From positions 372,001 to 436,000 of the forward strand of contig BPQB01000012.1 of assembly GCA_019973155.2 (NCBI GenBank): a DNA stretch of 64,000 nt, read 5' to 3'. The translations under genes were made by a program, and so were the position numbers. Below are positions 3,676 to 59,115 of this stretch, piece by piece; positions within the stretch are counted from its first letter, which is position 1; each line of letters opens with the position of its first letter. The notes beneath the pieces were generated by a model. It made no database searches. It was not told where the DNA came from and saw nothing but the letters and a program-made list of their open reading frames with translations. The stretch is from Phanerochaete sordida. Taxonomy: Eukaryota; Basidiomycota; Agaricomycetes; Polyporales; Phanerochaetaceae.

Positions 3676-4856
3676 ATGCGCTCTGTGTGGCCCGCGTCTC
3701 CAGTCTACCTATTCGTCACTACAGCATTGATTTTCCTCCATGTCCCTCCTACGATTGGTACACTGATCAATGTCGTAGTCGACGACCAGGATCCAAGCAT
3801 ATTGTACGCATCCGCGGAATGGAACATGGGCCAGTCGTGCATCACCTGCGATGCGGACATCGACCCGAAGCAAGTCCTCGGAGGGACCTGGCATGATGTG
3901 ACTTTCCGCGACAACGGTCAAGACACCCAGCAGAGCATGACATTCAACTTCACCGGTACGCCCCCTATTTCTTCGGTTGAGGACCACTTGTAGTGACCTC
4001 CCATCTTTAGGCTCTGCGATCTACGTGTACGGAATGCAGGTGCAGCTGTTTACGCGAGCCTCGGCAAACGTGCAGTTCTCTATCGATGGGGAGCTAGCAG
4101 ATACCTACGCCTTCCGCACTGAAAGTCTGAATGACACGTACAAGTACAACCAATTACTCTTTAGCAAGACGGACTTTGGCGAGGCCCATCACACGCTGAT
4201 GCTCGTGAACGGGCGTAGTGGGGAAGGGGATAGCCTGGTTCTCTTGGACTATTTGATGTACACGACGTGCGTACGCCCTCTCGACTCATCGCATTCGCTA
4301 ACGGACAGAGTTAGCGATACGAGTAGCTTTGACACCACCGCTGTAAACAGTTCACCAGGTCAGTCGCTCATGTAAAAAAAAACATCGCTTGAGAGTCTGA
4401 CGTTTTTCCACCGACTCAGCAGCCTCAGTGCCAACAGAGACCGTGACAGCGACGGCCTCCTCAGGCGCTAGCTGTAATGTCGCGTCCGGCCTTAATGGCG
4501 TCGCGCGTGCCGCTGTGGTCTGTTTGGCGGCGGTGCTCGGTGTGGTGCTCGTCGCCGGTGTTGTGATGGCCTGGAAGATACGCCAGCAGCAACGCTCCAT
4601 CATCATGCTCAGCGCAAGACCGGCTGTCGAATCCGTCCAGGCGCAGGGGCCGCCGCCGTCGAACCCGTTCTTCACGCACCCGGCAGCGTACAATGCAATG
4701 CACGTATCGACGCAGGGTGCGGCGACGGGGAGCATCGGCTCGGGCGGCAGCAGGATGATGCAGGGGATGAGGTCAGACAATTCGAGTAATGTGGCGGCGG
4801 CAGGGTCTAGCATCGCTAGCAATGCTCGTTTTCCGGGGTACAAAACCATGTATTGA
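3676..4856 (+). CDS. VDDQ-family single-pass membrane protein, subtype C (copy 1)
   Basis: Predicted exons are 3676-3955, 4011-4358 and 4420-4856 (354 aa). An optional 42-nt intron at 4267-4308 would also keep the frame. The protein has a hydrophobic signal peptide (residues 1-28), then the ectodomain: LINVVVDDQDPS, the Cys pair QSCITCDA, GGTWHDVTF, the exon-1 end FNFTG, SAIYVYGMQ and LVLLDYLMYT. A short Thr/Ser-rich stalk (ETVTATASS) leads to a transmembrane helix (AVVCLAAVLGVVLVAGVVMAW) and a basic cytoplasmic start. Intron 1 splits a Gly codon in phase 1, as in every copy. The last residues (RFPGYKTMY) align with the PPEY region of the 13537 copy but lack the second Pro, so the PPxY motif is lost. 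Function is unknown; the architecture suggests a cell-surface protein. Confidence 0.85.
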
Positions 4857-4964
4857 TGGATGGCTTACGACTGAGATATAGAGCACCCCCGTCATCATTA
4901 CTAGTTGCTATTGAAGGTGATTTGAGGGATCTGACCCTTAATGGACATCGCATGGGACGTCGGA

Positions 4965-5208
4965 CTGAACTCGGACCCCTACAAATGCCACCATTCCTCT
5001 CACAAGTCTATCCCCCCGAGCAACATGAAACGCTCGTTCCGCTGCGCTACTCAGAGCACGGCACTGCAGCACCCCTTCCAGAGGCAGGGAACGTTGCTGC
5101 GGACGAAAGAAGGATGGTGTAGAGGATGAGGACGCGATACTCGGGCAGCGCTGAGGGAAGCCGCGTCTCTGCGCCGCCGGAGTATCGAAGCATGGAGGTG
5201 GACATGTG
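4965..5208 (+). pseudogene. Tail relic of a subtype C VDDQ gene
   Basis: The segment resembles the cytoplasmic tail of the 13537-14751 copy. A frame with PPFLSQVYPPEQHE matches its SPYSPQIYPFVQHD, and a second, shifted frame near 5128-5208 (GSRVSAPPEYRSMEV) matches its GSRITAPPEYRSRV. No ectodomain or membrane helix precedes it and the two parts are in different frames, so it is a relic. The PPEY motif is still readable. Confidence 0.65.
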
Positions 5209-5259
5209 AAGAGCTCTGATATCAATTGAGGGACCGCACCTACGGCTGGACACTACTAC

Positions 5260-6262
5260 ATGGATACCTACAGTATCGTAGAAAACCGTCGATTTTTGAG
5301 CACACATCGTGACGTTGGTTGCAATGCAGCGAGACGTGTGTTCGATACATCGTCGTCACGTAGCAGCTATTTCGGTTTTCGCAATCCACAGAACTCGCAG
5401 AACGCCTATTCTCTGTGGATGGTCTGGACGAGATCCCGCACACGCTCAAGATCCAAAATGGGCGGTTCGGCGGAGGCCTGAGTCTCCTTCTCCTGGACAA
5501 TGTCATGTACACAAGGTACGCGCGCCGATCGAAGGTTGCTAGGTGTCGGAGGCTCACTGCCGTCAAATATACCATCCAGGACTCTCTTGAGAGTAGCTCT
5601 GCGCCTCCCATGGCCAGCTCCACGACATCTGCGCCTCCTCTCTCCAGCTCTACGATCGCTCAGCAACCAGCGCTCAGCTCTGCAGCCTCCCCTGCAGCAA
5701 CATCGGCCCTGTCCGCAGCGCCAGCATCCACTGCGTCCGCTTCCATGCGCGGCCGCACAGGCTCGGCGCGCGCGGCGCTCATCTCCGTCGCTACCGTCCC
5801 CCCGACGCTCGCACTCGCACTGGCCGCGCTGGCCTGGTGCACATGCCGCCGCCAGCGATATGCCCGTCCGAGTAACGCACACAATGTGGTGCCTTCAGAC
5901 GAGGATACGTCTCAGCTGCTCCGTTTCTTGGATCCCACAACGTCTCCGCGGATGGCCCGCTTTTCAGCGCGCTCGCACCCGCGCTCGGACCAGGAGAGGT
6001 CGTCGGCGGTGTGTCATTCGGGCGGTGGCGTTGCGTCTGGGCAGAAAAGATACGAGGAGGAGAATGCAGGAAATGATGCAACTGCGGGATCAGACGATAG
6101 CTATTCTGTTCCAGGGTCTGCGCCCCCGCAGTACGAGAGAGCGAAGCTGGAGCAAGAACGAGTGTGCTGTTGGGGCGCAGTCGTTAAGCATTCTGGGCGA
6201 ATCATAACAGTGAAGAGAAGACGATATCATTTTGATTGTGACTCACGATGTGCGGAGTAATC
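5260..6262 (+). pseudogene. 5'-truncated VDDQ gene, subtype B
   Basis: Only the distal half of the gene is present. From 5415 the frame reads IPHTLKIQNGRFGGGLSLLLLD, the end of the family's exon 2, with a GT donor at about 5516 and an AG acceptor near 5578. Exon 3 then gives a Ser/Thr/Ala-rich stalk, the segment GRTGSARAALISVATV leading into a transmembrane helix, and a tail with SAPPQYERAK, that is, a PPxY. The signal peptide, VDDQ strand and Cys pair are missing. The stretch 5300-5350 resembles 15020-15070 upstream of another B relic, so the same truncated form may have been copied. The 3' part is intact enough to be translated if it acquired a start. Confidence 0.7.
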
Positions 6263-8865: not shown

Positions 8866-10329
8866 ATGTCCATCCGCCTACACAGCTTCCTCTCCGTCCT
8901 TTTCACATTGGGGGTCCTTTATCCACCCACCGTGTTTGGTGCTCTTGTCAACGTCACCGTTGACGACCAGAATCTGGATCCGGTCACCGAAGAAAGCATC
9001 AGTTACGAAGGTCCTTGGGACCGTCAGCCTGGCTGCCTCGAATGCACTGCCAAGCCCGACCCATTACGGGCCTATGACGGAACCTGGCACGATGCGTCGT
9101 TCGACGTCAACTCGTCGTCCCAGCTGATTGTACCAAACGCAACATTCTCCTTCATCGGTACTCTCATCTCTCGCATTCATGCTAAATTACTCATTATTGT
9201 GCTGAAGGTACCGCGATATACGTCTTTGGGATGGTTGACAACAGCTACGGCATCGAACTCGTGTTCTATCTGGACGACAAACCGTCAGGGAGCTATACCC
9301 GCCCGCCATCTACAGACCAGGCATTCACCTTCAGTCAAACGTACTTCTGGGCTGAGGGGCTCCCACATACCACGCATGTGCTCAAGATGCAAAACGGGAG
9401 ACCGGAAACAGCGCAACAGAGCGTAGTCCTCTTCGATTATTTGGTGTATACAAGGTGAGCCTGAAGCCATCGTGTCGTACACCAGCTCATGGAAATACCC
9501 AAGGGACGACGGAGACAACGAAAGCTCCGCTGCACCCTCGTCGGACCCTGCAGCATCTTCCTCGTTGCTTGCCAGCACTACAGCGCGCTCATCAGCTCTC
9601 TCCCCGCCCTCTTCCTCCGCGGCTATGGTTCCCTCTGAGCAGTCTACAAAGCCTTCCACAGTACCAGTCACACCGTCATCCACCTTGTCATCTACGTCGT
9701 CGCCCACGCCGTCTTCCACAAACCAGTCTTCATCGCCGTCCACGGTGATGCCCACGAACCCGTCCACGATACTGGTTACTGCGCCATCCAGTACGCCGTT
9801 CACTGTGCCGTCTGCCACGCTGGCATTGTCCGTGACAGGTAATCGTACCGGGATGTCGGGCACTACACGCGCCATCGTGATCGCTGTCGCGATTGTCGTC
9901 TTCGGCCTCATACTCGGCCTCCTTGTGCTCCTGTACAGAGCGCACCGCAACCATCAAGAGCGCCGTGCCGGAGCAGCCGGTGTTGTGCCCGGCTTCGCAT
10001 ACAGCTCCGCAATCGGATCCGACGGCAATGCACCACAGATGCTTCCGTACCCATACGCTCCATCCTACTACTCTGTCTCCCCGGCTCCATTCATGGTCTC
10101 CAACACAGACCAGTTGATCACACGCCCTTCGTACAAGGCCAGGAATACGGCTGTTTCTGCCCAGTCCTCGCCCGAGGTACAGAGGGAGGAGCAGACGTCG
10201 GACGAGAGGGAGCGCAGCAGTGTAAGCGATTCGGTTTCCAATGTTGTAAGCGTGCGCAGGCCGGGAGGTAGTATCGCAGCAGAGACTGCACCGCCGACGT
10301 ATCAGAGCGAGGTCGGGATAGTTTTGTAG
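8866..10329 (+). CDS. VDDQ-family single-pass membrane protein, subtype A (copy 2)
   Basis: Exons 8866-9157, 9208-9454 and 9504-10329 give 454 aa. The signal peptide (residues 1-24) is followed by ALVNVTVDDQNLDPVTEES, YEGPWDRQPGCLECTA, DGTWHDASFDV and NATFSFIG. Exon 2 encodes TAIYVFGMVDNSYGIELVFY to VVLFDYLVYTR. Exon 3 begins DDGDNESS and encodes a ~100-residue Ser/Thr/Pro stalk with repeated 'SSTP'-like units that is probably heavily O-glycosylated. One transmembrane helix (about 301-325, AIVIAVAIVVFGLILGLLVLLY) follows, then a ~125-residue tail ending APPTYQSEVGIVL with a PPxY motif. Intron 1 is in phase 1 and intron 2 in phase 2, as in all A copies. Its closest relatives in the window are at 50472 and 21740. 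Confidence 0.88.
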
Positions 10330-10493: not shown

Positions 10494-11310
10494 CTAGATA
10501 CCGAAATATTGTACAGTACCGTCAGATGTGCGTTCGTGATGCGCGCACGGAGACGGGCCCTGGCGGGCGCACGGTCGGAAGCTGCATGTCAGATAGAATG
10601 TCAGGGTCTGGACGCGCGGAGAGAGGAGAGGGAGGGCGTACCGTGTGGCACACGGCAAACTCGAGCGACGACTCATTTCCTTCGCCACGCACAAGATGTG
10701 CGCGTTGCACGGGACATGCAGCATCTCCGGCCGCGCGTGGTACGACCTGAGTCCCGCGTTGAGCGCGAGCAGCGCGTCGGGATAGAACTCGGATGTCGCG
10801 CTGTTGAGCACGTCGAGCGCGCGCTGCGTCCATGTCGCAGTGGCGGTGTGCAGCAGCACCCTGAGCGCGCCCGCCGACCCGAATGGCCGTGGCACGGTGT
10901 AGTCCAATATTGGGCTGCCGCCCGCGAGCACGCGCTGTAGCGACAATCCGGGCACGGCCTTCACATGCGCCGCGGCGTCAAGTGTGCTTTTTATACCGCT
11001 TCCGAAGAGCACCAGTGTGAGGGGGTGGTACGAGAGGAGCGGCGCGAGCTCGGCAAAGCTGTACTTCTGTGAGTATATGCGCACTATAAGGCAAAGACGA
11101 TTGCTTACATAGGCAGGTCATTGAGCTCGACATCGATGCCTAACAGGTGCACCCACAGTGGGACGCGGTCCTCCAGCGACCCAGAAGCGGGCGTCGTGGG
11201 GTCGGGCACGCGGGTGACCCAGCACGCGCGTCAGCACGTGGGGCACGCTGAGCGGGAAGGTGACCAGCAGTACCACTGGCGACGCCTTCGGCAGCCTGCC
11301 CCCGCCAATG
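10494..11310 (-). pseudogene. Partial copy of the MYND-type gene (C-terminal region)
   Basis: The minus strand from 11310 to about 10510 matches 16770-15950 of the MYND gene. It keeps RLPKASPVVLLVTFPLSV and the following GT...AG intron, then SFAELAPLLSYHPLTLVLFGSGIKSTLDAA and TWTQRALDVLNSATSEFYPDALLALNAG. The MYND finger and first exons are absent, and the reading degrades after about 10700. At its 5' side it joins a monooxygenase fragment, so the locus is a chimera of two dead gene pieces. Confidence 0.75.
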
Positions 11311-11450
11311 ATGAGCACGCCCGGGCCGTTGCTAGATGCCGCGCCGGCGGTCCAAATCCCGTTGTCGGGCTTGAAATCGCGGTGGGATCCCAAACCTTCG
11401 AGAAAGCTCATGAGTCCCTTGAGATTCGTGTACCTAGGTCTATAGGTCAG
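11308..11450 (-). pseudogene. Monooxygenase fragment joined to the MYND fragment
   Basis: The minus-strand reading YTNLKGLMSFLEGLGSHRDF through KPDNGIWTAGAASS to VLIIGGG matches residues around the FAD motif of the monooxygenase at 1-1323. Immediately after the third Gly the frame passes into RLPKASP of the MYND gene. No start or catalytic core is present. Confidence 0.75.
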
Positions 11451-11559
11451 TACTTGTCAAGACCAGTGTCATTTGAGAAGCGAGGTCCGCGCTCCATAAA
11501 AAAACCGGATGCAGTATTTTTGTTTGGATCTGACGATTCTCTGGCATAGAAGGTCGGAG

Positions 11560-13536: not shown

Positions 13537-14751
13537 ATGCGCCTCAAACGGTTCACCGGACCCTACCTGTGCACCACAGCGATCCTCTCTTGCCTCCCTT
13601 TTCCATCTATTCTCGCAGCACAAGTCAGCGTGCTAGTGGATGACCAAGACCCGGGCGTACTGTACCAGGGATCTCCAGCTACGCCATGGAACATCGGTCA
13701 GACATGCGTCGCTTGCAGCGCAACCATCGACCCCAAGCAGACATATGACGGAACTTGGAGTGATGCAACCTTTCGCGATGACGGAGACGTCCCGCAGAGC
13801 GCGACGTACAACTTTACCGGTAAGTCCGCCGACTGCATATCTCAGCTTCGGCCGTGATTATTATTCTTTACCAGGGACCGCAATATTTGTATACGGCGTG
13901 CAGGTGCAGCTATCTACGCGAAGGCCGGCAGACGTGCTATTTTCAATCGACGGAGTGATGCAAGCTCCCTATACCTTCCAACCCTCAAGTCAAAATGACA
14001 CTTTCAAGTACAATCAACCACTGTTTGCCAAGCAGGATCTGAGTAACAGTCCGCATACGCTCGTGCTCCAAAACGGGCGCGTTGGTGGAGGTCCCAGCCT
14101 CGTATTGGTGGACTATCTAGTTTATATGAGGTGCGCTCTGTGTGCAGCATCTCAGGCTACATCCCTTGCTCATGAAGTAAAATTAGCAATATGAGCAGCT
14201 CAAGCGACCCAATCACAAACGGCTCGGCAAGTAAGTTCGAGGTCGTGCAAGGGTGACTTGGGGGATCTCATTTTCACAATTATACAGCATCCATTTCAAC
14301 AGTAACCGTGACCTTTACCCCTACGTCACTTGCCAGCGGCCCCGTTCCATCTGGGCTTCCAGGCACCGAAAATCGAGCACCATCTGGGTTGAGTGGTAGC
14401 GCATTGATTGCTGTGATCTGCCTAGCCGGGGGCCTCGGTGCAACTCTCATCTCCATTGCTGTATGGAAGCTACACCGGCAGCTGCGCAAGACAGCACACG
14501 ACGGAGGGTCGAAATCGGACTCCCTCCATACGTCGCCATACTCCCCACAAATCTACCCGTTCGTGCAACACGATACATCTACCTTGCTACCCGTCTCAGC
14601 ACAGGGCGTTTTAGGGCAGAGTTTGGGGACCGGAAACATCGGCTTCCAAGGTAGCAGGGTGGTGCAGAGAGTGAGCACCGATTACTCCGATAGCGTAGAG
14701 GGGAGTCGTATCACTGCGCCGCCTGAGTATCGAAGCAGGGTTCATGGCTAG
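13537..14751 (+). CDS. VDDQ-family single-pass membrane protein, subtype C (copy 3)
   Basis: Exons 13537-13819, 13875-14130, 14196-14230 and 14288-14751 give 345 aa. The signal peptide (1-28) precedes AQVSVLVDDQDPGVLYQGS, TPWNIGQTCVACSA, DGTWSDATF and YNFTG. Exon 2 has TAIFVYGVQVQLSTR and LVLVDYLVYMR. A 35-nt microexon and exon 4 encode a short Thr-rich stalk (SISTVTVTFTPTS), the helix ALIAVICLAGGLGATLISIAVW and a tail with APPEYRSRVHG at the extreme C-terminus, a clear PPxY. The stalk is much shorter than in A copies. The microexon is supported only by splice consensus and phase. Confidence 0.85.
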
Positions 14752-17643: not shown

Positions 17644-17654
17644 TGTGCGGACGG

Positions 17655-17889
17655 AGAGCCCACCGCCGTCCCTGTGTCCTTGCTAGAAGCGCACCAGGCG
17701 TCGTACGACTCGCTATCTGTCTCTGAGGAGGGCCTGACGACCTTGCGCGCGGCGGCGGCTCCCGCTGGCGGTGGGCGGCGTTTCACGCAGGAGCGACCAG
17801 GGTCGGGGCTCCTTGGAAGGCAGAGAGGGGTTAGTATTGCGGGAAAGAGCGCGCCGCCTGCGTATCGGAGCGTGTACGAAGGTGCTTAG
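17655..17889 (+). pseudogene. Tail relic of a VDDQ gene, subtype C
   Basis: The frame reads EAHQASYDSLSVSEEGLTTL and ends VSIAGKSAPPAYRSVYEG before a stop at 17887-17889. It matches the last ~75 residues of the 26771 copy (VEVSQASFNSLYLQEQW and AGKSAPPAYDAGE). It abuts the start of the MYND gene at 17643, with no ectodomain or helix. The PPAY motif is preserved. Confidence 0.7.
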
Positions 17890-21739: not shown

Positions 21740-23155
21740 ATGAGGACCTCCCATTGCAGCTTGGCCTTTCATCTACTCATGTTCATTTTACTCCGTCAGT
21801 ACGTCGCTTATGCTGCGCAAATCAATGTTACTGTGGACGACCAAGGCCTGGACCCGATCACTAGAGGAAGCATAAAGTACGAGGGAGATTGGAATCTTCA
21901 GCCCGGCTGCAGCGTCTGCACTGCCACCCCGGAACCGCAGATTGACGGGACCTGGCATGACGCCTCGTTTGACGTCACCTCACCGTCCCAGCTTCCAACA
22001 AACGCGACCTTCGTCTTCACAGGTACGCTCATCTCACATATTCATACTGAATCACTGATCACCTTACTACAGGTACTGCAATATACGTCTTTGGCATGGT
22101 CGACAACTTCAATGGGATCGAACTCGTGTTCTATCTGGACGGAGAGTCGTCACCGGGCTATACCAGCCTACCATCCACGGAGCAGCCTTACCAGCTCAAT
22201 CAGCTGTACTTCGAAAAGCATGGGCTCTCAAATACTGAGCATGTGCTGAAACTTCAGAATGGGAGATTGGACACGATGCAGAAGAGCGTTGTCCTCTTTG
22301 ACTATCTTGTCTACACAAGGTGCGCTTGCGGCCTACATGTAGAGCACCGGCTCATTGAGGGACCCAAGGGACGATGGTAGTGCTGTAAGCCCTGCGGGCC
22401 CAGCATTGGACACCGCAGTATCTTCATCGCCGCCTATAAGCTCCACAGCACGCTCCTCAGCCCCATCCACGGACTCTTCCTCCGCATCGATAGTGCCTCC
22501 CGTAAACTCTACAGAACCGCCCGCGTATCCGCAGAAAACGTTTTCCACAGGGCTGTCTTCAGCAACATCCGCACCGACATTCACAACGCAGTCCTCAGCA
22601 TCATCCACGGTCTCCGCTAAACCATCCACATCTCCGTCTACCACAGCTGGATTGTCCGCATCGAGCAATCATGCCGGACTATCAGTCACACCACGAGCCA
22701 TCGTAATCTCTGTGACAAGCATCGCCGTTATCGTCGTCATCGGAAACCTCTGGTTTCTCTACCGGGCCCGCAGGAATCGCATCCGGCACGGTGCCAGATC
22801 GGTGAATGTTGCGCCCAGCAGCATGCATAGTGCGACGACTGGATCCGAGCGCAGCAGTGGCCTCCTTCAGCGCATCGCTCACGCCATCACTCCACAGACC
22901 TCCCTCCACTCCTTATCCCCTGATCCGTTCATTATCTCTGACATGACCCAGTCGCCAATACGCGCTATCGGTAAGACCAAAAATGCGGCAGCCTCTGCCC
23001 GGTCTTCGCCTACAGCGCAGAGGGAGCAGCAGACGACTGGCGGGAGGGCTCGCAGCAGTTCAGCCGATCTGGTATTTGTAGATATACGCAGGCTAGGAGG
23101 GAGTATTGCCGCAGAAACCGAACCGCCCATGTATGAAAGCGAGGTTGGGATATGA
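21740..23155 (+). CDS. VDDQ-family single-pass membrane protein, subtype A (copy 4)
   Basis: Exons 21740-22022, 22073-22319 and 22369-23155 give 438 aa. It has a signal peptide (1-27), QINVTVDDQGLDPITRGS, NLQPGCSVCTA, DGTWHDASFDV and FVFTG, then TAIYVFGMVDNFNGIELVFY to VVLFDYLVYTR. The stalk is Ser/Thr/Pro-rich. The helix (IVISVTSIAVIVVIGNLWFLY) is somewhat less hydrophobic than in other A copies. The tail ends EPPMYESEVGI, with PPMY. It converges on the B copy at 24674-23456, whose stop lies 300 nt away, so the two share a 3' intergenic space. Confidence 0.88.
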
Positions 23156-23455: not shown

Positions 23456-24674
23456 TTAATGCTTGAGAGCCGGAAGTTGTAGTCTCCCTACCCCAAACAC
23501 GCTATCGTACCGTGGAGGCGCAACCTCAACGGAATTATCCAACTTCTCATCCAAATATCCAGCCGCATATCTCCGCACTTCGTACTTCGCGTAACCATCC
23601 ACCGAGGTGCTGCCAGACGCAGAAGTGATTGACATCGAAGATGTCTCCTGATTTGAGGAGGGGTGCACCTTTGCGATCGTGTGAGCCGTCGGCGGGGACA
23701 TCACATGTGCCACAATGGAAAAAGGTACGGGGGTGTGCTGGTTCCAAGGCTTCGCAGGGTGCGCTTCGTCTTGGCTTGCAGGGCGCACAGGGCGACGGCG
23801 TCGGTGGATGTGGAAGACTAGCGCGACTAGTGCGAGTGCTGCGAGCGTGGGTACCACTATTGCAGTGGCAATCACCGCCGTGCGCGCCGAGCCTGTGAGG
23901 CCGTGCATGGGAGCAGATGTGATGGACGTTGCCGCTAAGGACGGGGCTGTGGCTGATATCCCTGAGGTTGTGGAGGGAACGATCTCAGAGACGTCGTCTC
24001 TACGATTGGGGAGATTTGTAAATGTTAGTATCTGCATACTTTTCCATAGGTTGCGTACCTCGTGTATACAATGGAGTCCAGCAGCATGAGGCTTAACCCT
24101 CCGCCAATCCTACCATTCTGAATTACGAGCGTATGATGACTTTCATTGAGATTGTCCGTATAAAAGAGCGGCTGGTCGTATGTATACGCATTCTGCGGGC
24201 CCGTCGCTGAAAATGCGTAATTTCCTTTGCTCGTGCCGTCCACGTAGAAGAAGATATCGGCGTCGCTCAAGGGGACCTCTACGGACTGTGACTGGATGCC
24301 GTACACGTATACAGCAGATCCTACGCCCAGAACATCAATGTCCGAGCACCTGATGTTATAACGGACGCACCGGTGAAGCTGAATGTAGCATTTTGAGGAA
24401 TATTATGCCCATCATTCCTGCTAGGGTCAAACGTAGTGTCTAGCCAAGTGCCATTAAACGCTTGAGAAGCGTCAGGCCGAGCGTCGCAGGAAGCGTTGCA
24501 ATTCTGGCCAAGCGACATTCCAGATGTGCGCGAGATGAAATTGCCAGTTGTTGGATCCACGCCTTGGTCGTCGACGGTGATGTTCACCAGCGCACCATAC
24601 GTAGAGATAAAGTGCTGCCCCATAAGAATGGTAGCCACTGCGGCATACCAGGCACAAAAATGCACGCAGTGCAT
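23456..24674 (-). CDS. VDDQ-family single-pass membrane protein, subtype B (copy 5, inverted)
   Basis: Exons 24674-24371, 24320-24059 and 23999-23456 give 369 aa. I start at 24674 (MHCVHFCAW) because the other B copies start at the matching Met; the upstream in-frame Met at 24836 is not conserved. Features are a signal peptide, ALVNITVDDQGVDPTTGN, SLGQNCNASCDA, NGTWLDTTFDP and FSFTG, then SAVYVYGIQSQSVEV and LMLLDSIVYTR. A short stalk, the helix TAVIATAIVVPTLAALALVALVF, the basic HRRRRPVRP and a tail with APPRYDSVFG follow. It is the only clearly inverted member of the array. Confidence 0.86.
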
Positions 24675-26770: not shown

Positions 26771-27994
26771 ATGCCCCCCAGTCTCGGTCGTTTGACCATC
26801 GCGTGGATCGCTCTCATTATGTTTCCGTTTCTGCTTCCAGCAGTCAACGGCAGACTGACCAGCATTATTGTCGACGATCAGGACATGGGGCCAATATCCG
26901 CAAACAGCATCGCGTACGCGTCGCTCGCCTGGGATATTGGCCAGACGTGCACAACGTGCGACGCTCAGCCGCAGCCCAACCAAACCCTCGGAGGCACCTG
27001 GCACGACGCTACGTACGGTCCCGACGACAGCACTCGCAATATACCGCAGAATGCAACGCTCAACTTTACCGGTATGCCTAGCCTCCCCGATCTGTGAATA
27101 CATCTACATAGCCAATCTATAGGGTCTGCAATCTACGTCTACGGTATTCAGGCCCAGCACAGTACCCGAACATCATCCGATCTTATCTTCTACATTGACG
27201 GCGTGGAGAGGAGCCGATACAAGTTCATTCCATTCGGAGACCAAGATACCTTCACGTACAACCAGGTCCTCTTTTCTGAGACAAATCTTGAAGATGCTCC
27301 ACATACGTTCATGCTTCAGAACGGACAGATCGGAGGAGAGGGAAGCCTCGTCCTGCTCGACTATATCATGTACATGACGTGCGTGCCTGGAGTCATGCAG
27401 TCTGAGGATCCCGCTGAACGTAGCTGCGCTCAGGAACCAAGATCCGTTCGCCAGCAATTCCACAAACTCGACAACAGGTTCGTCTCCAGACAGCACCCAA
27501 ACTCATGCTTTGCAGTTGAGCCCCAGACTCATGGTACATATCGGACAGCAACGACTACAACAGCGACCGTGACAGTGACCTCCGCGGCCGCGCCCGGGAT
27601 TACTGGTGACGCACGCACGGCCGTAATTTGCCTGGCAGCAGCACTCGCGGCGGCGCTCGGTGCCATGACAGTGATTGCTTGGCGCGCTCGGCGTGGGCAT
27701 CGCGCCGCGGAACGCTCTCAAGGCCCGCCAGACACGGGAGTCGCGCCGTTCCCGCTCGTACCCTCCACCGCCATCCCTCCGGTTGAGGTCAGCCAGGCAT
27801 CGTTCAACTCATTGTACCTGCAAGAGCAGTGGCCGTCGGCGTTGCTCGCGTCTGGCGGGAGGACGCAGTCTGCGGGCAACGGGGAGATGCAGCGGGTGAG
27901 GGCAGAGTGCCCGGACAGCGCGAGGGGCGATAGCGTTGCGGGAAAGTCTGCACCGCCCGCGTACGACGCGGGGGAAGTCCGATATGCAGCGTAG
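26771..27994 (+). CDS. VDDQ-family single-pass membrane protein, subtype C (copy 6)
   Basis: Exons 26771-27071 and 27123-27994 give 390 aa. The second exon is open to the stop, although a donor at about 27379 could remove a short intron. The protein has a signal peptide (1-29), LTSIIVDDQDMGPISANS, DIGQTCTTCDA, GGTWHDATYGP and LNFTG, then SAIYVYGIQAQHSTR and LVLLDYIMYMT. A Thr-rich stalk (TATTTTATVTVTS) precedes the helix AVICLAAALAAALGAMTVIAW. The tail carries VEVSQASFNSLYLQEQW and ends AGKSAPPAYDAGEVRYAA. Its distal part from ~27737 is the left edge of the segmental duplication that reappears at 46560; two other tail relics (17655, 46560) derive from this subtype. Confidence 0.87.
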
Positions 27995-29532: not shown

Positions 29533-30640
29533 ATGTCGAAAACATCGTCGCTCGGGTCGCTGGAGATCACGAAGAGATCTTTGCGGCGGGATGAACGGAA
29601 AGTGGGTCGCGCTGACCCGCTAAATTTACAGGGCTGTTGTCGCGTAAGGTATGACGCTGTGCAGGACACTCGCCGACAAACTCCTGACTCTTTCCCATTT
29701 CGCAGTATCAAAGCCCGGACTGTGGATGTCATGACCGCTGCCTGTCCGCGGTCCAACTGACGGCGCCCCTGGACGGCGCGCATGCCGCTGCCGGGTCTAT
29801 CTATCTTCGGTAAGACGACACCACGTATAGCCTCGGATTTGCACACCCAACGCAGGACAGGTGAGTCACCGAATACCCCGACGATCGCCTAAGACTCACG
29901 CGCGCCGGCCAGATTCAGTTTGAGTACATAGACAGAAACACCTCACAGTGATTCTCCTCTAAATCCCGATATTTTACGTAGGAGACACGTTGCGCGCGGA
30001 CGCATGTCGCTTTGCACAGATTGAACCGGGCGCGCTCTGAAAGGGCTGTGCTGGCGAGAACTAGGACGAGTCGCCAGGATGCACCCCGTTGTTGTTGTGT
30101 CCAGAGTGAGCACGCGACCCCGCCGTGTCTACAAACATCGATCTGGCGTATCTCATGGTCAGTACCTGAAGCCCGAGGAAATACCGAGGGCGTTATATCT
30201 GTACAAAGTTTCACTCGCCACGACACGATAGTCCAAGGGAGATGTGTCTCGGAAGAAGGTCCGGTTGATATCGGTCAGTAACTGAACCAAGTCGCCAGTC
30301 ACCATGTGCTTCGCTGAATGTGTTCCGAGCCAGGAGATGCCTCGATACGAAGACGAGTCGCGACCATCTCCGCCGACACTTCGGCTAAGCTGATCTAGCT
30401 CTTCACCGTACGGTAGCTCTGGACACGCGCGATCAGCTCGCGCTCTGACACCTTATCCCACGAGGACCTGCAGGACCTGCGGCCAGAGTTAGTGCCGCCG
30501 TATGCGTATGCCTCTCCATCCTTCTGTTCTGCTTTCCACGTTCCATTTGCGGTCGCCAACACGGGCCGGCCTGTGATACTCCCGCCGAACAAGGCCGGGA
30601 AGTAGGCTGTTCCAGTACAGTCCTTGTCCATGGAATTGAG
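29533..30640. other. Unassigned part of the segmental duplication
   Basis: Between the HAD relics and the A-tail relic no family is recognised. A conserved GTAAGG...CGCAG pair at about 29646-29707 looks like an intron and is retained in the partner copy (about 48487-48547), which hints at an unidentified gene. The stretch 30490-30640 has no counterpart in the partner block; a 101-residue minus-strand frame there is unrecognised. Confidence 0.35.
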
Positions 30641-30785
30641 ATGGCACCAAACGACGGACGAGAGACCGCGCAGTAGCATCGGTGATATGCTTTGCAACAT
30701 CGTAAGCGTGCACGGGCATGGAGTCAGTATTGTAGGAGAGACTTCATCCCCAATATATGAGAGTGAGGTCGGGATGTTTCTGTAG
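30640..30785 (+). pseudogene. Tail relic of a subtype A VDDQ gene
   Basis: The frame reads IVSVHGHGVSIVGETSSPIY then ESEVGMFL and a stop, against IVSVHGLGVSIAGETAPPMY and QSEVGIVL in the 50472 copy. Similarity continues past the stop. The first ~90% of the gene is missing, and PPxY has become SPIY, so one proline is lost. In the partner block the whole gene survives. Confidence 0.8.
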
Positions 30786-30826
30786 AGGCGTACACAGCAC
30801 TCGTGATGGAAGGACGGTAAGGATTT

Positions 30827-36369: not shown

Positions 36370-36466
36370 CACGCTCGAAGTTAGCGTCGTAAGCGCCCGT
36401 GCCACGCTCGTTCACGCTAGCCCACGCTAGCCCACGCTAGCTTTCCACGCAACGTTCTGCACCCTC
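36370..36466 (-). repeat. Right terminal inverted repeat of the MULE-like element
   Basis: Three tandem CCCACGCTAG units (36413-36440) are the exact inverse of the left array. The outer 26 nt end ACCCTC directly before the target duplicate at 36467. Confidence 0.85.
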
Positions 36467-36809
36467 TGATGGAAGCTATGCCTCCTTTTACATCCTGTTC
36501 GTTACCTGAATAACTGGTGTCTTACTTTCCATCTAACACTGTTCTTAGATCAGCAAATGGAATACATTTGTATGATCTGTCGCTTACCCCTTGAGCAAAG
36601 GAGGACGTGCACTAGCAAAGTCTCATCTCGTCATACGCGTCCACCGGATAAGCTCTATCTTCATTTGTTCTCATGTTACTTCCGCAAGGAGCCGTTGTCA
36701 AAACATACGTGCACAGCCATAAAAAAGCTGACCTAAGTCCCCCATAACGTCCCCTGTACTCCACCTGAATCGCTACCAGAATTTCCCTCCCCATCCCTTT
36801 TCTTCTGAG

Positions 36810-37633
36810 ATGCGCTGCGTTTCTGCAGCCTTGTATGCAGCCATAACTCTGATTCTCATGGCCCAGCACTTCGCCTCCATCTATGGTGCGCTCATCAACA
36901 TTACCGTCGACGATCAAGGCCACGACCCGACGACTGGAAATATAATCTCACGCACGTCGGGGATTTCGTTTGGCCAAACCTGCGGCAGTGCCTGCGAAGC
37001 TCAGCCAGATGCTTCGAGAGTGTTCAACGGGACTTGGACGGATACAACGTTTGATCCTACCAGAGAAGATGAGCACGATGTTCCTCAAAACGTGACGTTC
37101 ATCTTTATAGGTCTGTTTGACGTGATACGGTCCTCTCAAATGCTCACGTTCTTCGTTCAGGATCTGCCGTATATGTGTACGGCATTCAGTCGCAGTCTGT
37201 GACTCGCCCCGCGAGCAACGCAGATGTACTATTCTACGTCGACGGCGCCAGCCACGGAAACTATAAATTCACTCCGGATGGCCCCCAGAATGCGTACACA
37301 TACAGCCAGCTGGTTTTTTCTGCAGAACATTTCGATAATATTCCGCATACGCTCATGATTCAAAATGGGCGGATTGGTGGGAACTCGAGTCTTCTGCTGC
37401 TGGACTTCATTGTATACACGAGGTCCGTACACGACGTTTATCATACCAATATTTGGAATCGTTTATCTCCAGCGTTCAGGGACGACGCTGTCACAGAGAG
37501 CCTCTCAACTGTCGCCGCAGCCACAGCCCCATTTGCAATATCTTCATCGTCCTCATCATCATCAACAGATTCATCGACTTCATCTTCATCATCTTCATCA
37601 TCATCTTTTACGATTTCTGAATTTATGAAGAAA
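36810..37633 (+). pseudogene. VDDQ-family gene, subtype B (copy 7), 5' half of an interrupted gene
   Basis: Exons 36810-37110 and 37161-37422 and the start of exon 3 (from 37480) are well preserved. They encode a signal peptide, ALINITVDDQGHDPTTGN, SFGQTCGSACEA, NGTWTDTTFDP and FIFIG, then SAVYVYGIQSQSVTR and LLLLDFIVYTR. The stalk is a Ser run encoded by TCATCA/TCTTCA repeats (37545-37613). At 37634 foreign sequence begins and the membrane helix and tail are displaced to 43800-44352. The upstream region 36480-36809 resembles 52055-52314. The truncated frame could still yield a secreted ectodomain ending soon after ATGAAGAAA. Confidence 0.82.
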
Positions 37634-38129
37634 CGTTTATATTACACCCCCGGCCCTACGGGCAGATTTTGACCTCGTGGACTCCGTCACGAAAAACGAG
37701 TGCAAAACCGTGGGAACCTTTTTTGTATGCTTCATTAGTAAGGTCGATCAAAATAGGGTTAGGGCTTCATACAAAGCTTCTAATGAAACTGGGACGATTT
37801 ATGTAGCACTTCCCTCCAGCTGTATCTCCTCGGTAACTTGCAGAGCACTACCTACGGGCATCTTGATCTCTTTCGTCGCCTCTATACACTAACCGCCCAT
37901 GGTTTGCATTGCCACCGCTGTTGCCAAAGTCGAGGCTACACGAGCGCTTAGCTTTCTTGGCCTGGCCGTCTCGGTCGCCAAACCATAGCACAAATTTTGC
38001 ACAAGGTGCGCAGTGAATTCTCGTGCTCCGTAGCTTTCTGACTATGTAAAATTTTTCCCCTAATTAATAATTGCACCTGCATGCGCAAGCCGCAAGTGTC
38101 GCGCCTCTAGGCGCCAAACGCTGCGCAAC

Positions 38130-43799: not shown

Positions 43800-44352
43800 A
43801 TGAAGAAATCGTGCCCGCCGAGCGCAGCTTCGGCCCGTTTCCAACCTAGTATCTTCATCCACGTCTACACCTACGCATATAACTACAACCTCTTCGTGGA
43901 CGGTAGTAATCGCTGCAGCTATCGTCGTGCCTATGCTCGTCTTCGCCCTGGCCGCGGTTATCTTCTGCATCCGCAGCCGCCGTATCCGCCACCGCCGCCC
44001 CGCGCGTCCAAAAAACATGCGCCTAGCAAGACCCTGGAACCAGTACGCTTCTGTTCCATTCAACCTCCAGTCACCCATGACTGCGCCGCGAGCTGCACGG
44101 ATGGCCGCCAAGTCGCGCCCATGCCCGCACGCGGAAGAATCTCCCGCGGTAGAGGCTTCGGGCTCCGGCAACACACTCATGGGTGGGATCGTGTATAACA
44201 GGACGCAGGAACATATAGATGGAGGTCCATGTGAACGGTCGAGTCGCATTGATGCTGTACCCGAGACTGCCCCGCCGCAGTATGACACTGTGTTTGGGAA
44301 CTCGGCCAGGCCCGAGAGGATGCCGCGGGGCATATTGACTCGCAAGTATTGA
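43800..44352 (+). pseudogene. 3' half of the interrupted B-type VDDQ gene
   Basis: After the second ATGAAGAAA the sequence gives a stalk end (SSSTSTPTHITTTSS), the helix TVVIAAAIVVPMLVFALAAV, a basic stop-transfer segment (RSRRIRHRRPARP) and a tail ending APPQYDTVFGNSARPER. It matches the 52315 copy closely, and similarity continues 3' of the stop to about 44560. The stalk frame differs by one position from the frame entering the insertion, so a frameshift accompanies the break. Here the PPQY motif is intact, unlike in the 52315 copy. Confidence 0.82.
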
Positions 44353-46480: not shown

Positions 46481-46559
46481 GATGGTACTGTCGGACGCGT
46501 CGCACCTGGGTACATGCGTCGGGACGCACGTGTTCTCGATCTAGCCCCACCTCCACTCT

Positions 46560-46821
46560 TGCGGGAGTCGTGCCGTTCCTGCTCGTATCCTCCACCGCCG
46601 CCCCTCCGGTTGAGGTCAGCCAGGCATCGTTCACCTCATTGTACCTGCAAGAGCAGTGGCCTTCAGCAGTGCTCGCGTCGGGCGGAAGGACACGGTCTGT
46701 GGGCGGCGGGGAGATACAGCGGGCGAGGTCACAGTGCTCGGACAGCGGGAGGGGCGATAGCGTCGCGGGAAAGACAGCGCCGCCCGCGTACGACTCAAGG
46801 GAGGTCCGATATCCAGCGTAG
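46560..46821 (+). pseudogene. Tail relic of a subtype C VDDQ gene
   Basis: The frame reads VEVSQASFTSLYLQEQW and ends AGKTAPPAYDSREVRYPA with a stop at 46819-46821, close to the last ~85 residues of the 26771 copy. It marks the left edge of the second duplication block; the upstream sequence is the truncated HAD gene. PPAY is intact. Confidence 0.85.
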
Positions 46822-46899
46822 CATGGTAGCATCCGCACGTCGACGCGTGATGTAACAGTGTGTGTGAGCAGGGGTGTCGCTATCCGAGTATGTAAGGAG

Positions 46900-48130: not shown

Positions 48131-48204
48131 GCTCCGACGTGGAGATGATGTTAGGATGGACGGAGGAGAGCAGGAGCAGTAACGCGCGCCAAACGCGAAG
48201 CGGG

Positions 48205-48330
48205 CCCGTAGCCCAACTGGGACCAGCGTCGGGGATCGTCGGGATAGGCGCCTCACTGGCGCGCGGCGCGACCAGAAGAGGCGACTGCGATTCCCTTGCG
48301 CGAACCCCTGCTATTCTGCCCCTCTCATTC
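48205..48330 (+). repeat. Dispersed GC-rich module, copy 4
   Basis: It shares CAGCGTCGGGGATCGTCGGG, ATAGGCGCCTCACTGGCGCG and the following GCGGCGCGACC block with the 29380 copy, and continues into the same unassigned downstream sequence. Confidence 0.55.
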
Positions 48331-48359
48331 GAAACGCGGTCCTATGTCTGACCGGAGAC

Positions 48360-50471: not shown

Positions 50472-51984
50472 ATGTCCATTGCCCTCCGCCTCCTTCCTCT
50501 CATTCTGTCAATCCTGGTTTCCCTAGATCGACACACCGCCTCTGGTGCCCTTGTCAACGTTACCGTTGACGACCAAGGTGCGGACTCGGTCACTGGGAAA
50601 GTTATAGGCTACGAAGGACTCTGGAAGATTCAACCCGGCTGTGTCGACTGCGACGCGATGCCCAACCCTGAGAATGCTCAGCAGGGAACTTGGCACGACG
50701 CCCCGTTTGACGTCACCGAGCCTCCCGTGCTGGTCTTATCCAACGCCACATTTTCCTTCACCGGTACGTCCATCTCTCACTTTTATACCGAGCTGCTAAT
50801 CGCGTTGCTGCAGGTACCGCGATATATGTCTTTGGTATGGTGGACACGAGCTTCGGCATTGACCTCGTGTTCTACCTCGACGAAGAGGTGTCAGGCCACT
50901 ATACCAATCCGCAATCAGGCCTGCCGGGATACAGCTACCATCAGCTGTACTTCCAGGCGCAAGGGCTCCAAAATATCCAGCATACAATCAAACTTCAGAA
51001 CGGACGACTGGATCAGATGCAGCCGAGTGTCGCTCTCTTCGACTACCTTGTATACACAAGGTACGTTCTGACCCCGTGACCTCGAACACTGACTTACAAG
51101 AGACCTGTAGGGACGACAGCAACAATGGCAGCTCAGCAGCGACATCGCTAGAGCCTGCAGCGATTCCATCCTTTCCCGCCAGTTCTACGGCGCATCCATC
51201 GGTCCCCGCTGTGACCTCTGCGTCCGTTGTTTCATTACCAGTCGAACAGCCCACAGATTCGTCCAAGAAGTTGTCCATGGAGCCGTCAACAACGTCCTCC
51301 ACACCCATACCTACCTTATTGTCCACACAGTCCTCGACGACGCAGATCATGACACCGTCCTCACTGCAGTCCATGCAGCCGTCTGCAACGCCGTCGACGC
51401 TACCGGATACGGAGACGTCTACGATGCCCTCCACTACGCCGTTCCACACAGCTGCATTATCCACAGCGGGCAATCATACAGGGCTGTCGAGCACCACACG
51501 CGCTGCCATAATTGCCGTCGCAGCCATCGTCCTCGCCATCATCGCCGCGCTTCTCGGGCTCCTCTACAGAGCACACCGGAATCGCCTCCAGCATGGCGAC
51601 AAAGCGCCAAACCCGGCGTACAACTCCGTGTACGGCTCCGTAGCTGGACACGATGGTAGGTTCCGTACAGTCCAGCACGCTGGGCACATTGTGGCGCCGT
51701 ATCCGTACGCCACTCCATCCTACTACTCTGCGTCTCCCGCTCCGTTCACAATCACCAACGCGGGCCAGCCGGTGATGCGAACCTCAGATAAGGCCAGGAA
51801 TGAGGCTGTACCTGTCCCATCCTCAGTCGCGGATCCGAGAGAGGAGCGAGCGACTGGCGATAGTGCACAAAGCAGTGTAGGTGATATGGTTTCCGACATC
51901 GTTAGCGTGCACGGCCTTGGAGTCAGTATCGCAGGAGAGACTGCACCTCCAATGTATCAGAGCGAGGTCGGAATAGTTTTGTAG
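50472..51984 (+). CDS. VDDQ-family single-pass membrane protein, subtype A (copy 8)
   Basis: Exons 50472-50763, 50814-51060 and 51111-51984 give 470 aa. I prefer the Met at 50472 (MSIALRLL) over the in-frame one at 50433 because the 8866 copy starts at the same place (MSIRLHSF). The protein has a signal peptide, ALVNVTVDDQGADSVTGK, KIQPGCVDCDA, QGTWHDAPFDV and FSFTG, then TAIYVFGMVDTSFGIDLVFY and VALFDYLVYTR. A ~120-residue Ser/Thr/Pro stalk, the helix AAIIAVAAIVLAIIAALLGLLY and a tail ending APPMYQSEVGIVL follow. It is the intact counterpart of the tail relic at 30640-30785. Confidence 0.89.
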
Positions 51985-52314
51985 AGGTGTACAGGGCGCC
52001 CGTTGTAGAACTGTACCTACATCCGCATCTTGATTGTTGCCTGAATCATTGACGTCGCACGATCTATTCCAACACTGTTCTCGGATTATCAGCCAATTGA
52101 ATACGTTTCTTGTGACGTTATGCTTGGACTCCGAACAAAGGAAAAAGTCTGCTGGCTGAATCTCGTCTTGTGGTACGTGTTCAGCTGATATGTTCTGTCT
52201 TCGTTTGTTCTCATCTTACTTCTGCAAAGGAAGCTGACTTGGTTGCATTTGACGTCTCCTGTACTTTATCTGAGCCGCCATCAGGAATTCGCTTGCCATT
52301 TTTCTCCGCCTGAG

Positions 52315-53530
52315 ATGCGCTGCATTTCCGCAGCCCCGTATACTGCCATGACTGCTATTCTCATGGCCCAGCACTTTGCATCGGCCTACGGCACGCTAGT
52401 CAACATTACTATCGATGATCAAGGCCACGACCCGATGACCGGCAATAAACTCTCGCGCACATCGGGGATATCGCTTGGCCAAACCTGCGGAAGTGCTTGC
52501 GACGCCCAGCCGGATCCTTTGCGAGTATTCAATGGGACCTGGATGGACACGACATTTATCCCTGGCGGGAAAGACGAGCACGGTGTTCCTCAGAGCGTAA
52601 CGTTCAGCTTCACAGGTCGGTTTGGCATGATATATAGCCCTTCGATAGTGACGTTCTTCGGGCAGGAACTGCCGTATATGTGTACGGCATTCAGTCGCAG
52701 TCTATAAATCGCCCCGGAAGCGACGCAGATGTACTATTCTACATTGATGGCGCAAAAGAAGGGAACTACAAATTCACTGCGAAGGGCCCGCAGAGTGCGT
52801 ACACATATAACCAACTGCTTTTTTCCGCAGACGATTTTGATGATATTCCGCATACGCTCATGAGTCAAAACGGGCGGATCGGAGGAGGATCGACTCTTCT
52901 TCTACTGGACTTCATCGTATACACGAGGTCCGTACACAGCTATGTGGAAACATTTGTAATTATTCACCCCCAGCGTCCAGGAATTACACTGTCGCAGGGA
53001 ACGTCTCAAGTGTCGTTGCAACCACAGTCGCATCTGCCACATCGTCATCGTCACCCACGACATCTACACCCACGACATCTACGCCCATGACATCTACACC
53101 CACGATATCTACACCCACGACATCTACACCCACGACATCTACACCCACGACATCTACACCCATGATATCTACACCCACGACATCTACACCCACGTATAAA
53201 ACTACAGCCTCTCCGCGGACAGCGGTCATCGCTGTCGCCGTCGTAGTGCCCACACTCGTTTTCGCCCTAGCCGCGTATATTGTCTGTATGCGCCGCCGCC
53301 GCCGCCCTGAGTGCCCAGAAAACATGCGTCCGGCAAGGCCCTGGAATCAATACGCCCCAGTACCATTCTCCCTCACAGCACCCATTTCTGGGCCGCCGAC
53401 TGCACGAATGGCCGCCAAGTCGCGGCCAGTCCCATACAGAGAGGCATATCCGGCGATAGAAGCTGCGGCATCCAGCAGCACACTCGTACATGGGGACGCG
53501 CATTATCGGACACGAGTATACATAGACTGA
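52315..53530 (+). CDS. VDDQ-family single-pass membrane protein, subtype B, with truncated tail (copy 9)
   Basis: Exons 52315-52615, 52666-52927 and 52981-53530 give 370 aa. It encodes a signal peptide, TLVNITIDDQGHDPMTGN, SLGQTCGSACDA, NGTWMDTTF and FSFTG, then TAVYVYGIQSQSINR and LLLLDFIVYTR. The stalk contains nine TSTPT-type pentapeptides encoded by a 15-bp minisatellite. The helix is TAVIAVAVVVPTLVFALAAYIV. The tail stops at a TGA (53528-53530) where the sister copy at 44220 reads GGA. Downstream the old tail is still visible, with PPRC in place of PPxY. The copy therefore lacks the PPxY motif twice over. Confidence 0.87.
53057..53191 (+). repeat. 15-bp minisatellite encoding TSTPT repeats
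   Basis: Nine near-identical 15-nt units (ACGACATCTACACCC and variants) in frame encode Thr-Ser-Thr-Pro-Thr repeats of the extracellular stalk, a probable O-glycosylation region. Unit number is likely to vary between strains. Confidence 0.9.
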
Positions 53531-57130: not shown

Positions 57131-57720
57131 ACGCAGCGAGGACAAGGTAAAGCTTTGGGGTAACCGCGAGCGTTCCCTACTCGCTTACTCATTCCTGGTA
57201 ATACCTCTTACTTTTACCCATATGCCCTGAAAGTAAGAAACGTCTTTGTTACCCTTCTGTTACCCCTTTCCCTCACCCCCGCTCCCTCTGACCCTTTATA
57301 TACCCCCCGCCCTTGCTTCCGCGCCTTCGATCGTCGTAATTTCCAACCGGCTTGCTGCTTCGCGCCCCGACTCGCAACAGCTTGGATCCGACAGTGCCCG
57401 TTGAGCCGCCGCAGGCGGCGCATACAATCAGACGATCCCCCAGGCTCACCTCGATTGCGAGAGCATCAGCCTCGAGAACAGCAGCCTCGGGAGCAGCAGC
57501 CACGAGAACAAGAACCGTGGAGCGAAGCGAAACGGTCTCTTGTCTGAGCTTAACGAGTTCTCTAAGAGTCATTGAACTAGGAAGCCGGAGCCATCGTTCG
57601 CAGGTGAGCTACGCCGAATGTTGAAGCCGAGATGGGATGTCAACTCATTGCCGGTTCCTAGGAAGCCTGGGTGCTCCACCTTCACCTGCGTTGTGGTGAT
57701 GGCTTTAATCTACAACACTC
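57130..57720. repeat. Possible solo LTR or LTR-derived segment
   Basis: The stretch has repeated GTTACCC/GGTAACC strings, a TTTATATACCCCCCGCCC block like the promoter of fungal Gypsy LTRs, and a downstream GC-rich part. No retrotransposon coding sequence or second LTR lies in the window and the TG/CA ends are not certain. Confidence 0.35.
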
Positions 57721-57801
57721 GCCATTTCACTTGCTCATTGCTCGTCGGCGAGCAGCTTTGAACTAGCCTCCCATCCGCACTTACAGATCCGTTTAACTGC
57801 C

Positions 57802-59115
57802 ATGTCTAGCACTGACTACCACGCTCTTCTCTTTGCCGCCTTCATCGTTTGCCTTGTCTATGAGATCCCAGTCTTTGCAACCCTCGTCAATGTCACCGTT
57901 GATGACCAGGGGACGGACCCGACGACCGGCGCGGGCATAACCTACGAGGGACCCTGGAACCTCCAGCCTGGATGCCCCGATTGCAGCGCGATGCCCGACG
58001 GAGAGCAAGCTCACGACGGGACCTGGCACGACGCGAAGTACAACGTCAACAATCCCACTCAGATCGTCTCGCAGAATGCAACGTTCAATTTCACTGGTGC
58101 GCATATCTCTCGCTTCGCATGTAGCCGTCAATGATGTGACCGTAGGCACTGCAATCTATGCCTTCGGCATGATTGACGGGGGAGTCGGCATCGACCTCGT
58201 ATTCTACATGGACGGCGAGGAGGCGGGGCGTTTTTCATATCCTCCCACGAGCGCGTACAAATACGAGTACGACCAGACGTACTTCCAGGCAGAGGGGCTC
58301 GAGAACACTCTGCATTCATGGAAGATGCAAAACGGGCGGTGGATGGAGTCCCAGCACAGTATCGTCCTCTTTGACTATCTCGTCTACACAAGGTATGCTT
58401 ACAGCGTAGAGTCATCAAACAGAACTTACCGTTGCGCGATAGGGACGATGGTATCGAGGAGAGCCCTGCCGCTCTTACGTTGAGCGCAGGAACCACTACA
58501 TCGTCTTCCTCAATCTCGACAGGACAGCCATCGGCCAGCCCTGCCCTTTCTACAGCATCAACGGCCAGCTCGACTCCTACATCTTGGTCGTCAGATAGCT
58601 CTATCATTTCTACTTCTCTAACGGCCAGGTCCATCTCCTCATCGTCATTGTTATCAGCGACATCAATCCTGTCCTCTGTCCTTTCTCTGCCCGCGGAACC
58701 GTCAACGACGCCCGGACCAGCCTCAGTACAACATCACGCGCTATCGAGCACGACACAAACTGCCGTGATAGCCGTCGCGATCACCATCGCGACAATTATC
58801 TCCGTGATCCTTGTGCTTTTCTACAGGGCACACCGCAGAGGCATCGGTCACGTCACCGCATCTCATATCACCCCATTCCTAGACGTCGCAGGCGTGCCAG
58901 CCTCGCGCGAGAAGGCCCGGCACACACCGGGGGTGGCCACGCCATCTTTCGTCATGCAGTGGATTGCCAGTGGAGGGGTGTGTAACAATCCACCAGATGG
59001 TGCACCCGACGTCGTGTATATTCGGGAATCTGGAAGTATCGCAGGAGAGACTGCGCCGCCGCCATATCAGCGCAAAGACGCGGCGCGACAACTGCATGGC
59101 GCGCATCGGTCCTAG
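57802..59115 (+). CDS. VDDQ-family single-pass membrane protein, subtype A (copy 10)
   Basis: Exons 57802-58096, 58146-58392 and 58443-59115 give 404 aa. It encodes a signal peptide (1-27), TLVNVTVDDQGTDPTTGA, NLQPGCPDCSA, DGTWHDAKYNV and FNFTG, then TAIYAFGMIDGGVGIDLVFY and IVLFDYLVYTR. The stalk is Ser/Thr-rich with long SSS runs. The helix is TAVIAVAITIATIISVILVLFY. The tail is shorter than in other A copies and diverges at the end (APPPYQRKDAARQLHG), yet it keeps PPPY. It is the last array member before unrelated genes resume. Confidence 0.88.

Follow-up and report, generated by a model that had tools for sequence, protein, structure and literature searches.

A large single-locus cluster of putative single-pass surface proteins with PPxY tails in Phanerochaete sordida

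The stretch of DNA analyzed here, which we call the window, comprises 64 kb of contig BPQB01000012.1 of the basidiomycete Phanerochaete sordida, contains no undetermined bases (N), and has a guanine-cytosine content of about 56%. Between positions 3676 and 59115 it holds ten gene-sized copies of one family of membrane proteins, nine on the forward strand and one (gene e) on the reverse strand, all of which carry the VDDQ or IDDQ start. An earlier note on this DNA had counted ten such copies in a tandem array, and this count is borne out: each copy, modeled individually through its splice sites, has GT..AG introns of 42-71 nucleotides (nt) with fixed phases. The exon lengths given there for the ectodomain, 280-304 nt for exon 1 and 247-262 nt for exon 2, were reproduced exactly by the ten models. 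Table 1 compiles the coordinates of the genes and of the relics of the same family.

Exon 1 encodes a hydrophobic, signal-like N-terminus (judged by eye in all ten window copies) together with the N-terminal half of the ectodomain; its junction with the intron is in phase 1 and follows F-[TI]-G in every copy. The other half of the ectodomain is encoded by exon 2, which closes in phase 2 near Y-T/M, and the stalk, the helix, and the tail by exon 3. Subtype A (a, c, and f) has four exons, with a small additional one of 44-50 nt preceding the stalk, and the other copies fall into subtypes B (b, d, h, and j) and C (e, g, and i). The ectodomain extends over about 155 residues, of which 14 positions, including those of an invariant cysteine pair, are the same in all 30 rows of the alignment described below. 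The stalk, whose length is very variable between copies, consists of Ser, Thr, and Pro to 43-72% in the nine helix-bearing window copies, and to 32-72% in the 27 models, from the window and beyond, that each have a hydrophobic stretch of 20 residues and a tail. It is followed by the hydrophobic, helix-length stretch, by basic residues, and by the tail. The gene models thus establish in nine window copies the surface-molecule architecture that the earlier note had proposed for all of them; the signal-like N-terminus and the two ectodomain exons are common to the ten, but gene g stops within its Ser-rich stalk and has lost the membrane helix and the tail. Gene i terminates short of the conserved tail end. 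Much of its stalk is a coding minisatellite at 53052-53194 (9.5 copies of a unit of 15 base pairs (bp), 92% matches), a plausible source of changes in stalk length.

Table 1. Genes and relics of the family in the window (aa, amino acids).
Feature	Subtype	Coordinates	Strand	Length (aa)	Exons or basis	Remarks
Gene a	A	3676..4856	+	339	3676-3955, 4011-4266, 4309-4358, 4423-4856	FPGY in place of PPxY
Relic	A	5123..5200	+		Weak profile match, 13.9 bits	Tail end, SAPPEYRS
Relic	C	5397..6140	+		Exon profiles, frames	Remnant of exon 2 (5397-5513) plus exon 3 (5586-6140), without exon 1; PPQY
Gene b	B	8866..10329	+	454	8866-9157, 9208-9454, 9504-10329	Tail ETAPPTYQSE
Gene c	A	13537..14751	+	348	13537-13819, 13875-14130, 14187-14230, 14288-14751	Tail TAPPEYRS
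Relic	A	17698..17874	+		Exon profiles, frames	Tail, SAPPAYRS
Gene d	B	21740..23155	+	438	21740-22022, 22073-22319, 22369-23155	Tail ETEPPMYESE
Gene e	C	23456..24674	-	369	24674-24371, 24320-24059, 23999-23456	Tail VAPPRYDS; convergent with d
Gene f	A by exon layout, unplaced in tree	26771..27994	+	348	26771-27071, 27123-27378, 27434-27477, 27549-27994	Tail SAPPAYDA
Relic	B	30492..30794	+		blastn, 72% to gene h tail; profile match 30627-30776	Tail, degenerate motif SSPIYESE
Gene g	C	36810..37672	+	251	36810-37110, 37161-37422, 37480-37672	Truncated, without helix and tail
Relic	C	43849..44298	+		Exon profiles, frames	Helix and tail without ectodomain, TAPPQYDT
Relic	A	46495..46809	+		Profiles; from 46562 inside 84% DNA match to gene f tail and next 2 kb	Tail, TAPPAYDS
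Gene h	B	50472..51984	+	470	50472-50763, 50814-51060, 51111-51984	Tail ETAPPMYQSE
Gene i	C	52315..53530	+	370	52315-52615, 52666-52927, 52981-53530	End without PPxY; 15-bp stalk repeat
Gene j	B	57802..59115	+	404	57802-58096, 58146-58392, 58443-59115	Tail ETAPPPYQ

The family is not confined to the window. Three ectodomain queries against the organism's own genome gave at least 61, 61, and 63 exon matches (two queries at E≤0.01, the third at E≤1), with at least 57, 55, and 57 of them on C12, the contig of the window. Pairing the profile matches of exons 1 and 2 over the window and the fetched loci yielded 30 gene-sized copies, 28 of which lie on C12 between 119 and 468 kb, an interval of 349 kb; this contig represents 663,093 of the 40,844,352 bases of the assembly. 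The remaining two modeled copies are on C64 and C7, and two divergent queries also matched C76 and C91 (E≤0.001) and, more weakly, C50, outside the 30. These relatives at C7:774001-776800 and on C76, C91, and C50 are divergent and single, and PPxY is absent from the end of the C7 member. With further copies to its left and right, the window represents no more than the densest part of the cluster: the array described earlier is present at 3676-59115, but its 55 kb are a fraction of the roughly 349 kb occupied overall. Linkage to mating type was considered and rejected, as pieces of STE3 receptors were found on C11, C4, C50, and C137 and homeodomain matches on C23 and C3 (two on C3 lying 1.4 kb apart on opposite strands), all off C12. 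Together with the small introns and the guanine-cytosine content, these STE3 and homeodomain matches are in keeping with a basidiomycete host. An exact four-unit TTAGGG, sought as a check for a subtelomeric location, had no match anywhere in the assembly.

In a tree of the 30 ectodomains, subtype B forms a group of 13 rows (support 100/99) and e, g, and i form the C group (100/95). Genes a and c group with two genes just left of the window (93/93), and a further group unites the copies at 219.8, 327.0, 331.2, and 333.2 kb (99/99). The three alternating subtypes reported earlier are therefore visible, with B and C well supported, although gene f remains unplaced and does not group with A. The alternation alone is unremarkable (P = 0.059; 248 of 4200 arrangements have no equal neighbors), but the self-comparison of the window supplies a cause for it. 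A colinear series joins 27735-29832 to 46562-48671 (84% identity), 29840-30065 to 48889-49115, 30492-30794 to 51691-51993, and 36491-37551 to 52026-53052. Both blocks (27.7-37.5 kb and 46.5-53.0 kb) have the order A piece, B piece, C piece, so the alternation is best read as the duplication of a three-gene unit; as judged from these matches, the cluster grew through local duplication, in part of this A-B-C unit.

The nearest neighbor is the same for exon 1 and exon 2 in 19 of the 30 rows and differs in 11, and exon shuffling between subtypes was set aside. Gene j and the copy at 443.7 kb of C12 are 77% alike in exon 2, far more than in exon 1, where each has another nearest neighbor, for which local gene conversion is a possible explanation.

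Profiles of the three exons, run over the six frames of the window, recovered six relics besides the ten genes, one of them weak, which falls short of the seven or more announced in the earlier note. Five are tail pieces without any ectodomain, and the remaining one retains part of exon 2. The relics thus mostly preserve the 3' end, whereas genes g and i are damaged precisely there. The orphan subtype C helix and tail at 43849 lies 6.2 kb downstream of the end of gene g on the same strand; it is possibly the severed 3' part of that gene, separated from it by an insertion. A check of this gap for a transposon revealed no terminal repeats.

Most tails carry a PPxY motif about 12 residues from the C-terminus, on the C-terminal side of the membrane helix. 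Since the selection of models outside the window had rewarded PPxY, the motif was recounted on raw frames: it occurs within the last 25 residues in 28 of 36 frames matching the tail profile, compared with 1 of 409 other frames of at least 100 residues in the same DNA. Nine of the 36 matches, seven with the motif, had built the profile, and the other 27 give 21 with PPxY; dropping the three frames shorter than 100 residues leaves 26 of 33. In two of the eight remaining frames, those of the relics at 5586 and 43849, the motif is present farther from the frame end. Among the modeled tails, 22 of 27 have PPxY within the last 22 residues, while shuffled tails had a mean of 0.24 and a maximum of 3 of 27 in 2000 rounds. 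PPMYQSE recurs in six tail frames. The exceptions in the window are copy i, whose PPxY end is lost, copy a, with FPGY instead, and copy g, which has no tail. PPxY is a classic ligand of the WW domains of Rsp5/NEDD4-type ubiquitin ligases, and single-helix PY proteins, including yeast Rcr1 and Commissureless, bind Rsp5 and NEDD4 (PMC5578492, excerpt). We hold the conserved PPxY tail, which the earlier note passes over, to be the strongest functional clue to the family.

No Pfam family model matched in the seven members tested. The Protein Data Bank gave no sequence match at E≤0.001 (the best were 0.024 and 0.041), and no structure of a viral library matched the predicted ectodomain at E≤0.001; a family's absence from such sequence or fold search lists does not exclude it. 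The model of the gene f ectodomain, of low confidence and better in the exon 2 half, is all-beta. Carbohydrate-active or lectin chains account for 27 of the 50 Foldseek matches listed, none of them significant, and a jelly-roll check gave a weak resemblance to CBM6, CBM35, and CBM36, likewise without a significant match. The comparison with carbohydrate-binding beta-sandwiches proposed in the earlier note is supported by the predicted all-beta character and by the kind of neighbors listed, all of them weak; the ectodomain perhaps has a jelly-roll-like beta fold. No paper describing the family was recognized from the titles and the starts of the abstracts among the open-literature matches listed. 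It is probably an unnamed fungal family of basidiomycetes, and similar VDD-type single-helix proteins are presumably present in mushroom genomes.

The copies are under purifying selection relative to each other, most strongly in the ectodomain. Of the 435 paralogue pairs, 417 have a synonymous divergence (dS) above 1.5 or are saturated, so only the closest pairs are usable for the ratio of nonsynonymous to synonymous divergence (dN/dS). Ten pairs were chosen for closeness, with one gene used twice, and eight of them provided the stalk, helix, and tail. Pooled dN/dS was 0.68 for the signal, 0.20 for the ectodomain, 0.40 for the stalk, 0.50 for the helix, and 0.47 for the tail; the ectodomain lay between 0.09 and 0.28 in each of the ten pairs. 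Single pairs are noisier (in 119/124 the helix dN is 0, and in 217/337 the stalk is saturated at synonymous sites), and with an ectodomain dS of 0.55 and more the compared paralogues are of considerable age. Windows of 12 codons, moved in steps of 6 columns over seven pairs sharing no gene and skipped where sites were too few, reached at most 0.69 in the ratio of the proportions of nonsynonymous and synonymous differences (pN/pS), in the loop that links the GTW motif to the NATF strand. The earlier note took the layout for that of surface molecules under diversifying pressure; it named positive selection on loops as support and purifying selection as a refuting result, and the latter is what the close pairs show. 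Diversification is not found between these copies: the ectodomain is the most conserved part, which argues against diversifying selection between copies, and such selection on loops was rejected as the dominant mode, no window exceeding the value given. Selection acting at a small number of sites, or among alleles, may be compatible with this paralogue result.

Several other features were observed in and around the window. An MSS51_C-domain gene is present as two copies in pieces on the reverse strand (10497-11456 and 15782-17212; 80% DNA identity between 10545-11302 and 16030-16773), with further matches at 355.5 kb of C12 and on C46, C39, and C47; it was rejected as a companion gene family, since its matches on C12 are at two places, too few for that role. 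The start of a gene for an FAD/NAD-binding, monooxygenase-like protein lies at 613-1353 on the reverse strand, and a 46-residue piece of it recurs at 11.3 kb (11121-11456, reverse strand), adjoining the MSS51_C remnant. Short arrays of a 10-bp unit (CTAGCGTGGG or its complement) are located at 30839-30907, 35074-35196, and 36402-36441, between the subtype B relic and gene g. Finally, a stretch of 371 bp with open frames on both strands is repeated with 85% identity at 44972-45342 and 63583-63953, 18.6 kb apart; its tested frames had no Pfam match at E≤0.01.

Our preferred reading, tentative and with a probability that we put at roughly 0.45, is that the window is the dense center of a very large single-locus cluster of single-pass surface binders, in which ubiquitination recruited through PPxY sets the surface level or the partners of the proteins. 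We infer that the ectodomain would bind its ligand through a jelly-roll-like fold, the likeliest ligand being a glycan of the wall or of the environment, and would be held outward on a glycosylated stalk. A HECT ubiquitin ligase of the Rsp5/NEDD4 type would bind the PPxY tail through a WW domain and would set the protein's own surface level through ubiquitination and endocytosis; alternatively, the protein would serve as a membrane adaptor for the removal of other surface proteins. Given the purifying selection on the ectodomain, each copy would keep a constrained binding surface, and differences between copies would reside chiefly in stalk and tail, perhaps also in expression. What makes the locus interesting is that 28 or more gene-sized copies of a family for which seven tested members gave no Pfam model are packed into one interval of 349 kb. 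Its PPxY tail offers a testable mechanism, and its single-locus layout recommends it for mapping studies of surface recognition, wall sensing, or somatic incompatibility in basidiomycetes, while the selection result requires the simple story of fast-evolving binding loops to be set aside.

If the proteins were in essence membrane adaptors for an Rsp5 ligase, resembling Rcr1, Commissureless, or PRRG proteins, the ectodomain would bind other membrane proteins and the PPxY tail would deliver the ligase to them. In favor of this account, a function in membrane traffic is described for single-helix PY proteins (PMC5578492, excerpt), and PPxY, at a near-fixed distance from the C-terminal end (12 residues for 13 of the 28 frames), stands out in a tail evolving fast elsewhere (dN/dS 0.47). 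We nevertheless regard it as rather unlikely, as no homology to those families was seen, some gene copies lack PPxY, and the motif might just as well act in the turnover of the protein itself.

WSC-type sensors signal through the Rho1 wall-integrity pathway, their WSC domain (PF01822) has eight cysteines, and Mid2 and Mtl1 share their layout. That the present proteins are wall-integrity sensors of this kind, with an ectodomain gripping the wall, a glycosylated stalk serving as a spring, and a tail relaying the signal, is in our judgment unlikely. The order of parts does match that of Wsc1, which has an extracellular domain, a Ser/Thr-rich region, one helix, and a tail (PMC9024836, excerpt), and the Ser/Thr/Pro share of the 27 stalks agrees with it. 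However, no WSC or Mid2 Pfam match was obtained at E≤1 in the seven members, only two cysteines are invariant as opposed to eight in Wsc1, and about 30 copies, nearly all in one cluster, compare with five sensors in yeast (PMC9024836, excerpt).

A role in nonself or partner recognition, in which the family would be a fungal counterpart of the Hydractinia allorecognition complex and selection for recognition would have diversified copies and alleles, appears distinctly unlikely. Somatic incompatibility in basidiomycetes has been called poorly understood (PMC8229728, excerpt), and clustered paralogues accompanied by pseudogenes are indeed present, with 28 of the 30 copies on one contig and six relics in the window. 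The role is weakened by the paralogue dN/dS: instead of an excess of nonsynonymous change, the ectodomain, in comparisons of paralogues only, has a ratio of 0.09-0.28 in the ten pairs, stays at or below 0.69 in the 12-codon windows, and is better conserved in the pooled values than stalk and tail. In addition, the cluster lies off the contigs on which STE3 receptors or homeodomain genes were found. In clustered protocadherins, identity is combinatorial. A comparable recognition or compatibility megalocus would comprise about 30 single-pass receptors with a new ectodomain family, nearly all in one interval, whose PPxY tails would turn ligand contact into ubiquitin-dependent removal of proteins from the surface; identity would lie in the combination of constrained copies present or expressed and not in fast-evolving loops. 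This reading is compatible with purifying selection between copies and still very unlikely.

Compared with known systems, the family shares one helix and a cytoplasmic PPxY-type motif with Rcr1/Rcr2, Commissureless, PRRG, and Shisa proteins (PMC5578492, excerpt), but it has a conserved ectodomain and a long stalk, and no sequence relation to them was seen. With the WSC sensors (Wsc1-3; PMC9024836, excerpt) and Mid2/Mtl1 it has in common a small N-terminal ectodomain, a Ser/Thr-rich stalk, a single helix, and a tail at the fungal surface, and it differs in the missing WSC match, the single cysteine pair, the PPxY tail, and the clustering of its copies. The low-confidence fold model weakly recalls the CBM6, CBM35, and CBM36 jelly rolls; unlike these, the ectodomain has no significant structural or Pfam match and is predicted to be anchored in the membrane instead of attached to an enzyme. 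The Hydractinia Alr complex is likewise a large single-region cluster of single-pass surface receptors with pseudogenes (PMC11067881, excerpt), in comparison with which the present family has no immunoglobulin-type Pfam match in the seven members, is fungal, and shows purifying selection between its copies.

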